A DNA stretch of 64,000 nucleotides from contig JABSPZ010000009.1 of the NCBI GenBank assembly GCA_013213785.1, positions 186,001-250,000 on the forward strand. Reading direction: 5' to 3'. A program made the position numbers and the translations under genes. The stretch comes from Henriciella sp. (GTDB taxonomy: Bacteria; Pseudomonadota; Alphaproteobacteria; Caulobacterales; Hyphomonadaceae). This document shows positions 13,570 through 16,306 of this stretch, piece after piece (the stretch's first letter is position 1; each line of letters opens with the position of its first letter). Below the pieces are notes generated by a model. That model did not search any database and was not told the DNA's origin. It saw only the letters and a list, made by a program, of their open reading frames with translations.

Positions 13570-13604
13570 GTCTTTTAAGCCAACAGGTGCCAGGACTCTT
13601 TGTC

Positions 13605-14225
13605 ATGCAACACGGGGACGTATGGCGCGCATTGGATGAGATCGCCACGCGCAAAGGGCTCACGCCATCGGGGCTTGCCAAGCTTGCTGGTTTAGACGCC
13701 ACCGCCTTTAACAAATCAAAACGTGTCTCAAAAGGGGGACGACCACGCTGGCCCTCAACAGAGAGCATTGCACGCGCCTTAGAGGCGGCGAACGTAGACT
13801 ATACAGAGTTCGCGAGCTTGGTGGCGGGGCCCTCCTGTCCGACGATCCCCTTCCTAGAATTGCCAGATGCGACTCGCAGTGGGTTGTTTAACGATCTCGG
13901 CTTGCCAGATGCTCCCGCCTGGGACGCCATCGAGTTTCCGGGCCCTAACCGAATTGAGGGATGTTTTGCGCTCGAGGTTACCGATCGTGATCTGGAGCCG
14001 ATTTATCGCGCAGGAGATCGGTTGATTTCATCCTGCCAAGCCGACATTCGATCCGGTGACCGCGTCGTCCTGAAAACGACGAAAGGGCAGATTTGTATCG
14101 GCGTTGTGGCGCGGCAAACCGCAAAGCGCTTAGATTTAAATTCGATCGCCGACGGGCGCGCACTGCCTGCTATCAACGTAGAAGAAATTGATTGGATGGC
14201 GCGAATAATTTGGGTGAGTCAGTAG
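13605..14225 (+). CDS. HTH regulator with peptidase-dead S24 (LexA/CI-like) domain
   Basis: 206 residues from the ATG at 13605, which has AGGA nine bases upstream; a GTG at 13587 is the longer option. The N-terminal HTH (about 8-65) includes TPSGLAKLAGLD and ESIARALEAANV. The C-terminal domain follows the S24 fold pattern (GCFALEV...DLEPIYRAGDRLI, then GDRVVLKTTKGQICIG). Where active S24 peptidases have G-D-S-M-E-P, this has D-R-D-L-E-P with Asp129 in the serine position, so autocleavage is unlikely. Probably a repressor that senses another signal. It has its own palindromic operator upstream. Confidence 0.85.
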   Translation: MQHGDVWRALDEIATRKGLTPSGLAKLAGLDATAFNKSKRVSKGGRPRWPSTESIARALEAANVDYTEFASLVAGPSCPTIPFLELPDATRSGLFNDLGLPDAPAWDAIEFPGPNRIEGCFALEVTDRDLEPIYRAGDRLISSCQADIRSGDRVVLKTTKGQICIGVVARQTAKRLDLNSIADGRALPAINVEEIDWMARIIWVSQ

Positions 14226-14310: not shown

Positions 14311-15216
14311 ATGGATTGGGACAAATTGAAATCCTTTCACGCCGCCGCAGAGGCAGGCAGCCTCACCGCAGCCGGTGAGCGATTGGGTATTTCTCAATCT
14401 GCCGTGTCTCGTCAGATTGCGGCTTTGGAGGAGCACCTTGGTGTTTCTCTTTTCCAACGACATGCCCGTGGGTTGGTGCTGACGGATGCCGGGCACACGC
14501 TTCATCGCTCGACCGTCGACATGGCCACAGCGGCGCAGGGGGCAAGCGCTGCCCTCCGGGATCAGCAAGACGTTGCACAAGGCGAATTGATTGTGACGGC
14601 TCCCGTTGCGTTTGGCTCTACCTGGTTGGTCCCTCGCCTTGGGGAGTTTGTCGCGCAGAACCCGGAAATGCGCGTTGATCTTCGTCTGGACGATGGCGAA
14701 AGCTACGATCTGCTGAAACTGGAAGCTGAATGTGCAATCCGTTTGTGGGCCGCCGACAAGGCGGATCTAATCCAGCGCAAGCTGGCCACCGTCGCGACCA
14801 ATCTCTACGCGTCGCCCGAGTACATCAAAGCGCATGGAATGCCGCGAACGCCGCAGGATCTCGATAATCATCGGATCATCGCTTATGGCGCGATTGATAG
14901 CCCGATCACGGCGATGAGTTTTGCGGAACGCGTCGGCCGTGACGATGCAGGCCCTCGAAAAGCGGCTTTGACGGTCAACAATGTTCCGGCGATGCTGCGC
15001 GCGGTGGAGGCAGGCCTCGGGATTGCAGACCTACCGGATTATATGGTGAGTGCTGTGCCGCGTTTGGTGCGCGTGCTGGAAGACTTCACTGGACCAAGTT
15101 TTGATCTGTATTTCATCTATCCAAGTGATCTGAAAAGATCGAAGCGAATTGGGGCGTTTAGAGACTTCCTGACAGGCCAAGTAGAGGCCTTCAGGTCTTC
15201 ACCCTTGCGTCAATGA
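14311..15216 (+). CDS. LysR family transcriptional regulator
   Basis: A 301-residue LysR regulator. The winged HTH (1-60) shows LKSFHAAAEAGSLTAAGERL and SQSAVSRQIAALEEHLGVSL. The C-terminal periplasmic-binding-like co-inducer domain follows (about 90-295). Target genes cannot be read; the usual divergent target is absent because the upstream neighbour is on the same strand. It lies 85 bp after the S24-like regulator. Confidence 0.95.
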   Translation: MDWDKLKSFHAAAEAGSLTAAGERLGISQSAVSRQIAALEEHLGVSLFQRHARGLVLTDAGHTLHRSTVDMATAAQGASAALRDQQDVAQGELIVTAPVAFGSTWLVPRLGEFVAQNPEMRVDLRLDDGESYDLLKLEAECAIRLWAADKADLIQRKLATVATNLYASPEYIKAHGMPRTPQDLDNHRIIAYGAIDSPITAMSFAERVGRDDAGPRKAALTVNNVPAMLRAVEAGLGIADLPDYMVSAVPRLVRVLEDFTGPSFDLYFIYPSDLKRSKRIGAFRDFLTGQVEAFRSSPLRQ

Positions 15217-15272
15217 TTGTGACATTTCTGTAAAATATGCAGAAATGCATGATGAAGATGCACAGAAGCAGG

Positions 15273-15300
15273 TTGCATTCCCAACCAATAGTCCCATATA
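15273..15300 (+). promoter_or_regulatory. candidate sigma-70 promoter for the sRNA
   Basis: TTGCAT at 15273-15278 and CATATA at 15295-15300 are separated by 16 bases and resemble -35 and -10 elements. They sit just before the structured segment, predicting transcription from about 15307. Confidence 0.4.
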
Positions 15301-15306
15301 GCCCCC

Positions 15307-15415
15307 GTGTTGAGGTTCCGGACACATACCCAATCATTCCTCCGATTGGGCGTTTCCTCCCCCAGACGGAACCAAACTTCCAAGGCCTGGCTGCTTAGAG
15401 CGCCGGGCCTTTTTT
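15307..15415 (+). ncRNA. structured small RNA candidate with CCUCC loops
   Basis: A roughly 109-nt segment between the LysR gene and ttcA has a complete sRNA architecture. A closing stem pairs 15314-15320 (GGTTCCG) with 15367-15373 (CGGAACC). Inside it a seven-bp hairpin (15329-15335 with 15344-15350) carries the loop ATTCCTCC, and the single-stranded part 15351-15363 reads CGTTTCCTCCCCC. A terminator hairpin with a T-run follows. Exposed CCUCC motifs can pair with Shine-Dalgarno sequences, as in several alphaproteobacterial sRNAs (for example the cuckoo/CcsR and MmgR/suhB-type classes). No matching ORF is seen. Family membership was not tested. Confidence 0.6.
15384..15415 (+). terminator. 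rho-independent terminator of the sRNA
   Basis: GGCCTGGC (15384-15391) pairs with GCCGGGCC (15402-15409), allowing one G-U pair, with an inner GCT/AGC extension, and is followed by six T bases. Confidence 0.85.
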
Positions 15416-15430
15416 CTTGATTTTCAAGGC

Positions 15431-16306
15431 TTAAAACGGGACGCCATCGTCGCTTTCGCCGGGGCCGCCGGGTATCAAGCCAGCGAAATCGAACACGCGT
15501 GGATCATGGAGGTGGCTGGGGCGAACAGTCGCCAGCGCGTGCGCCATAACTTGCCGAACGCCTGGCTTCTTAGTCTCCCACTCATCCAACATTTGCTTCA
15601 TCGCAACGCGCTGCAATCCATCTTGCGATCCACAGAGATTGCAGGGAATGATTGGGAAGTTCATTGCCGCGGAGAACTTCTCTAGATCCGCTTCAGCCGA
15701 TGTGATGAGCGGACGCAGAACCATCACGTCGCCTTCATCATTTAGCAGCTTCGGAGGCATGGCCGCCAGCCGACCACCATGGACCAGGTTCATCATGAAG
15801 GTTTCAAGCGCGTCGTCGCGATGATGACCGAGGACGATTGCATCACAGCCTTCTTCACGCGCAATTCGGTACAATATCCCGCGCCGCAAACGAGAACACA
15901 TGGCGCAGAACGTGCGGTTCTCCGGGACTTTTTCGGTAACGATCGAATAGGTGTCTTCGGTCTCAATCCGATAATCGACGCCGACAGTGTCGAGCCAATC
16001 GGGCAGCACGTGTTTGGGAAAGCCCGGTTGACCTTGGTCGAGATTACAGGCGAGTAGATCGACGGGAAGGGCGCCCTGCCATTGCAAATCGAGCAATACG
16101 GTCAGCAAGCCGTAACTGTCTTTTCCGCCAGATAGACAGACCAGCCATTTCGGCCGTTTCTCTGACTGGCGATCGACCAAACCGTAATTGTCGATCACTT
16201 GAAGGGCATTGCGGGTCAACCGTTTGCGTAGCTTCTTAAAGCTCACGCTTTTCGGGACATTGGCCAGAATAGGTGGCACCGTTGGAATAGCAGCTGTATC
16301 AGGCAT
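15431..16306 (-). CDS. ttcA: tRNA 2-thiocytidine(32) synthetase TtcA
   Basis: A 291-residue ATP-dependent PP-loop enzyme that thiolates cytidine 32 of tRNAs. The PP-loop SGGKDS is at 59-64. The two CxxC pairs that hold the Fe-S cluster are C134/C137 (FCAMC) and C222/C225 (PCNLC). Length and the [17 protein letters not shown] context match TtcA rather than the related TilS or ThiI. The region between it and the plus-strand LysR gene holds the sRNA candidate. Confidence 0.96.

Follow-up and report, generated by a model that had tools for sequence, protein, structure and literature searches.

Comparative evidence for a small RNA gene behind an LsrB/VtlR-type regulator in Henriciella, a probable counterpart of the LsrB-AbcR module

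In a genome of Henriciella (family Hyphomonadaceae), a LysR-type regulator gene and a convergent ttcA gene are separated by 214 bp, which raises the question of what is encoded there and how it would be controlled. The window, by which we mean the whole stretch of 64,000 nucleotides that was analysed, carries the LysR gene at 14311-15216 on the plus strand (301 aa, Pfam HTH_1 and LysR_substrate domains) and the ttcA reading frame at 15431-16306 on the minus strand (NCBIfam TtcA, 404 bits), leaving the gap from 15217 to 15430. Just upstream of the LysR gene, the plus-strand gene at 13587-14222 specifies a protein that matches a Peptidase S24-like (LexA/CI-type) domain (Pfam 26.2 bits, cut-off 23.3). 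The right half of the gap is occupied by the gene of a small RNA (sRNA) of about 109 nt, at 15307-15415 on the plus strand with an inferred 5' end. We consider it probable that this gene specifies an LsrB-controlled, AbcR-like, trans-acting sRNA that blocks ribosome sites, and that, judged by where it lies, by its control element and by its layout with two motifs, it corresponds in Hyphomonadaceae to the LsrB-AbcR module of rhizobia.

Folding predicts that the sequence at 15307-15415 can encode a compact RNA comprising a closing stem, an inner hairpin, a UUUCCUCCC stretch and a terminator. Its minimum free energy (MFE) is -43.9 kcal/mol, compared with -29.6 +/- 3.2 kcal/mol for 200 shuffled sequences, none of which folded as low (z -4.51). 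The outer stem, at 15314-15373, pairs GGTTCCG (15314-15320) with CGGAACC (15367-15373) over 7 pairs, and within it the inner hairpin at 15329-15350 (15329-15335 with 15344-15350) presents the loop AUUCCUCC (15336-15343), which includes the first anti-Shine-Dalgarno (aSD) motif with its CCTCC at 15339-15343. The second aSD motif, GCGUUUCCUCCC, lies at 15350-15361, contains CCTCC at 15356-15360 and is likely the main seed. An intrinsic terminator follows at 15382-15415, with its stem at 15382-15411 and a T-run at 15410-15415. All of these elements, like the gap itself, had been proposed in the first-pass annotation and are borne out by sequence and fold, except that the second CCTCC, described there as single-stranded, is only partly exposed, its first two C being paired in the MFE fold. 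Finding two CCTCC within these 109 nt has a p of about 0.025 by base shuffling, which is weak alone.

Comparison with relatives argues that this is a real sRNA gene. By DNA similarity, homologues of the RNA are present in 44 of 101 genomes, its own included, and 43 of these 44 belong to the same family. The LysR gene is upstream of the RNA in every one of the 44 homologous loci, GTTTCCTCCC is found no more than 520 nt downstream of LysR in each, and each has a run of four or more T at the terminator; ttcA was found within a flank of about 1.5 kb at 8 of 30 RNA loci tested. Of the 52 contigs of named genomes in which the exact core pattern occurs, 46 bear the name Henriciella, Hyphomonas or Hyphomonadaceae, and the other six are labelled Alphaproteobacteria (4), Rhodobacterales (1) and Sulfopaludibacter (1). 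The contig with the Candidatus Sulfopaludibacter label (L115, CAMEDD010000005.1), which has the exact core, is perhaps mislabelled or part of a mixed assembly. Two copies of the RNA are found near the LysR gene in G033 (L149, in tandem) and in G042 (G042:C1:501213-502708).

Compensatory base changes, whose absence had been named beforehand as a refuting observation, are present in these relatives. We counted them in a sequence-only alignment (A1) of 34 of the 43 distinct homologues, in which the stated structure is paired in 89.1% of cells. Changes on both sides were found in 15 of 24 pairs, covering all three helices, compared with 6.1 +/- 1.4 for shuffled controls (500 shuffles, all below 15) and with 3-6 for slid partners, a comparison in which the count favours the stated structure since this structure was derived from the window sequence. 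All 7 pairs of the outer stem change on both sides (85.8% of cells paired), as do 6 of the 10 terminator pairs (95.3% of cells paired). Run unaided on A1, RNAalifold recovered only the terminator and neither the outer nor the inner stem; for the count, both stems were specified in advance from the window sequence. The count on a model-fitted alignment (A3) was stronger, and we set it aside because A3 includes suhB copies and antisense matches.

In single folds, the inner hairpin forms in 43 of the 44 homologues and six or more outer pairs form in 36, among which L018 uses another partner. Of the homologues, 33 have the CCUCC in the loop and 11 lack it. The second motif, C or T followed by GTTTCCTCCC (as RNA, C or U followed by GUUUCCUCCC), occurs in 44 of 44, a figure biased by the extraction of homologues, which required TTTCCTCC. 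The equal weight first given to the two CCUCC motifs is thus not supported, only the second being constant, while the proposal of a CCUCC-bearing, terminator-ended alphaproteobacterial sRNA is supported. A small protein gene, with a frame opened by the GTG at 15307, is highly improbable: the GTT TCC TCC frame does have a start and an open run in 32 of 44 homologues, but it is interrupted by a stop within the tested stretch in 18 of 44, and the changes preserve pairing. The RNA would moreover not be coding, because the distances from stem to motif occupy all three reading phases (13, 12 and 9 of 34).

Upstream of the RNA, a candidate -35 hexamer TTGCAT (15273-15278) and a candidate -10 hexamer ATATAG (15296-15301), separated by a spacer of 17, can be read by eye on the plus strand, and a similar A/T-rich hexamer occupies the same place in the listed relatives. 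A simple consensus scan of 15180-15480 returned 0 sigma-70 promoters and 0 terminators. The promoter that the first-pass annotation called plausible is therefore a candidate resting on the reading by eye and on the relatives, and the terminator that it called strong is carried by fold, covariation and the conserved T-run and not by the scan. With the promoter scan negative and the RNA on the same strand, about 90 nt past the LysR stop codon, the element could belong to the LysR mRNA as a 3' UTR element or attenuator, with no free sRNA. We regard this as quite unlikely, since the gap has a conserved palindrome and the A/T-rich hexamer at fixed distance, and since box and RNA share class loci.

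This palindrome, ATGCAGAAATGCAT at 15237-15250 (ATGC-N6-GCAT), is a candidate LsrB operator that spans roughly -70 to -57 relative to the inferred start. The ATGC-N6-GCAT form is found in 41 of the 44 homologous loci, compared with a shuffled mean of 0.25, and the N7 form in none of the 44. In those 41 loci, the distance from the palindrome to GTTTCCTCC stays within 97-103 nt despite diverged sequence between them. At 68 class loci from other families, ATGC-N7-GCAT occurs in 33 (shuffled 0.15) and the N6 form in 0; there, the distance from the box to the RNA motif varies from 135 to 223 nt (23 loci). The published LsrB box is given as GCAT-N3-TG-N3-T (PMC7486931, PMC8844928). By inspection, the minus strand of the window reads GCAT-TTC-TG-CAT-A, missing the strict published box by one base, and N3-TG follows 9 of 23 right arms of the dyad. 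The published half-site box may thus correspond to one arm of the palindrome plus its flank.

Is the neighbouring regulator of the LsrB type? The best solved relative of the LysR protein is 9hh1 (251.6 bits; next 104.2), the LsrB of Agrobacterium tumefaciens (PMC11975290). In the reciprocal direction, the LsrB-type protein of an aSD-RNA locus of the class (L187) matches the window LysR better than any other protein of this genome (290.2 bits; next 120.7), and its own best solved relative is again 9hh1 (329.5 bits; next 125). Among NCBIfam models, GcvA gives the window LysR the highest score, 145 bits, below its cut-off of 288. Judged by best matches, the window LysR is an LsrB/VtlR ortholog. 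Its Cys141 aligns with Cys144 of Agrobacterium LsrB, and the place of LsrB Cys273 is taken by Ile; Cys occupies the Cys141 position at all 44 homologous loci, at 23 of the 24 additional loci from the order and at 2 of the 28 from the class. The first-pass annotation, which read the locus as an sRNA, had missed both this LsrB/VtlR-type neighbour and the palindrome, the two features that indicate what kind of system this is.

Relatives of this LysR match at E 1e-50 in 164 of 289 class genomes, at least five of which give multiple matches; outside the family, the matches listed have identities of 38-52%. At E 1e-60, 15 of 40 genomes searched gave no LysR match. LsrB has been called unique to Rhizobiales (PMC11975290), a description that these apparent relatives in class genomes do not fit. 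In Agrobacterium and Sinorhizobium, the gene of LsrB (= VtlR) immediately precedes abcR1 and abcR2 (PMC7486931). Activation of abcR1 by LsrB is reported for Agrobacterium (PMC7486931) and for S. meliloti (PMC8844928), whereas in PMC7486931, under the conditions used there, the AbcR RNAs of S. meliloti did not respond to LsrB.

At gathering score, Rfam identified only a tRNA in the whole window and nothing at the RNA site, and 10 homologous loci gave 0 gathering matches. As far as these models reach, the sRNA is new to Rfam, and literature searches, in which subscription journals were thinly covered, returned no prior report naming an lsrB-linked sRNA in Hyphomonadaceae. The best sub-threshold match of the window RNA is to suhB/MmgR (RF00519), with 27.5 bits against a cut-off of 41 and the common core GGGCGUUUCCUCCC, a score that does not discriminate because LsrB-linked RNAs of other families also reach 24-34 bits with this model. 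Its own genome holds a true suhB elsewhere (G000:C2:6821-6895, 47.5 bits, above the cut-off) and a suhB-like RNA (G000:C50:32674-32752, 32.1 bits). Both carry GCGTTTCCTCCC before the terminator, identical to the window RNA, making three siblings. A larger aSD sibling set in the genome was dropped: among the 7 GGGAGGAAACGC sites, 3 can be read as an RNA in which a terminator follows the motif.

The window RNA might accordingly be a divergent further copy of suhB/MmgR behind the LysR gene, with the same action, another ancestry and perhaps no LsrB control. Besides the shared GGGCGUUUCCUCCC core and terminator, this unlikely though not negligible reading can draw on R1, our model of the window RNA family, with which true suhB loci reach 18-31 bits; but the window RNA has an outer stem, stands at the LsrB locus and scores below the suhB cut-off in a genome that retains a separate true suhB, and the synteny and the palindrome would be left unexplained. 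The initial guess of suhB/MmgR thus picked the nearest Rfam family but, on the same score and the same separate gene, not the family itself. R1 matches at E 0.01 were obtained in 152 of 299 order genomes, of which only strong or syntenic ones were counted because of the 18-31 bits of true suhB loci. Matches of 38-44 bits in G103, G150, G160, G173, G211 and G216 were rejected, not being behind a LysR gene; the stretch downstream of LysR in these six genomes has no such RNA.

The preferred reading, an LsrB-controlled counterpart of AbcR, was compared with known systems. Like AbcR1/AbcR2 (alpha-r15, RF02345 ar15), the window RNA lies on the same strand behind an LsrB gene and has a GCA-N4-TG-type element before its candidate promoter (PMC8844928, PMC7486931, PMC5461406), and, as described for AbcR, aSD motifs are placed both in the loop of the first hairpin and between the hairpins (PMC8844928, PMC5461406). 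The S. meliloti AbcR RNAs measure 114-121 nt (PMC8844928, PMC7486931, PMC5461406). Unlike them, the window RNA has the seed UUUCCUCCC instead of GUUCCC or UUCCCCUC, an outer closing stem, a dyad spacing of N6 and no match to the ar15 model, which was absent from 16 Rfam matches up to E 10 at 15217-15430. An ar15 search of 142 class genomes was empty, with controls equally silent, and hence gives no proof of absence. Another trait by which AbcR RNAs are defined is repression of ABC-transporter mRNAs. The likeness of the window RNA to AbcR is one of layout, place and proposed action rather than of proven descent. SorX (RF02784, Rhodobacter) is likewise an aSD-bearing RNA, but its model gives the window RNA only 10.6 bits (cut-off 46.6). 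The NfeR1/ar14 RNAs (RF02344) share repeated aSD motifs (PMC8844928), but score 18.8 bits here against a cut-off of 58.8.

In the GcvA-GcvB pair, a LysR-type regulator is encoded beside an sRNA under its control. The window locus resembles this pair in that a LysR-type gene adjoins an sRNA, but in GcvA-GcvB the genes are divergent and the RNA is unrelated.

We investigated whether the place behind LsrB is occupied by such RNAs more widely. At least half of the aSD signature UCUCCCAGACGU...AGCCUCCCUGU is present behind LsrB relatives in 40 of 68 class loci, and both halves in 30. A relaxed form of the box occurs in 30 of the 40 class loci with the signature vs 8 of the 28 without (p 2e-4, a guide only, as are all such p values, because the loci are related); 20 of 68 have neither. 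In the order, 24 further loci were chosen by the LysR gene alone, of which L144 was dropped, its contig ending there. Among the others, 11 have an aSD RNA, 8 by model or motif and three (L159, L165, L166) by eye. Counting these three, the box is found in 7 of 11 loci with RNA vs 0 of 12 without (p 0.0013); without them, the figures are 4 of 8 vs 3 of 15 (p 0.18), so that the association at order level is suggestive only, depending as it does on three RNAs called by eye.

No sequence relationship between the window RNA and the class RNAs could be demonstrated, and membership of ar15 is not claimed. R2, a model built from class RNAs, gave 10.5 bits (E 0.85) at the window RNA, below two other places of the window, and R1 reached at most 19.9 bits at the 17 class loci tested. 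The alignment of class RNAs (A4) overstates their conservation, because its rows were chosen for a clear signature. The SorX model gave 47.0 bits at L175:1173-1242 and 43.2 bits at L181:1169-1240 (cut-off 46.6), both LsrB-linked RNAs of other families, which hints at a relationship of SorX-type with LsrB-linked RNAs. Tentatively, and with the balance close to even, LsrB and a downstream aSD sRNA may form an ancient module of all Alphaproteobacteria rather than of Rhizobiales alone, in which the regulator, the dyad (N7, or N6 in the lineage of Hyphomonadaceae) and the gene position have been kept and the RNA has been rebuilt or replaced (AbcR, SorX-like, suhB-like). If so, the founding output of LsrB would be the blocking of ribosome sites by whichever aSD RNA fills the slot. 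With these comparisons, the LsrB-sRNA pair would reach beyond Rhizobiales into Hyphomonadaceae and further families of Alphaproteobacteria, and they offer a case of an sRNA slot persisting while its RNA changes.

From the covarying RNA, the fixed synteny, the LsrB orthology and the palindrome at fixed distance we infer how the module would work, its transcription, control by LsrB, use of Hfq, translational repression and targets included. An RNA of about 109 nt would be transcribed from its own promoter just behind the LsrB/VtlR-type LysR gene, whose product would bind the palindrome at about -64 and control, probably activate, this transcription. The protein may sense oxidation via Cys141, opposite LsrB Cys144, a reading not extended to the class proteins because most have no Cys there. 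The RNA would present its aSD UUUCCUCCC between the first hairpin and the terminator, with the second CCUCC in the loop in most relatives, and would pair, probably with Hfq, with GGAGG-bearing ribosome sites of target mRNAs, blocking initiation and lowering target translation. Binding of SuhB together with Hfq to the thnR 5' UTR is reported in Sphingopyxis (PMC6563040). The proposed module would supply an sRNA outside Rfam with a likely regulator and operator and with a likely way of acting.

Sites of this kind are present in the genome, where GGGAGGAAA-N1-10-ATG occurs 11 times compared with 0 for the reversed control, and 6 of the 10 listed GGGAGGAAA sites lead into frames of at least 269 codons. 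The 12-nt complement of GCGUUUCCUCCC, GGGAGGAAACGC, coincides with the ribosome site of the ilvB leader peptide (G000:C4:209039-209056, L239), which we regard as a candidate target of the window RNA; suhB, with the same motif, would pair with it equally well. The leader peptide, MRPTVVLVIRHLR, is rich in Val, Leu and Ile, and the ilvB frame starts 169 nt past the ribosome site; the peptide is likely that of an attenuator leader. The same arrangement of leader and ilvB was found in 6 of 36 such sites read, one per genome.
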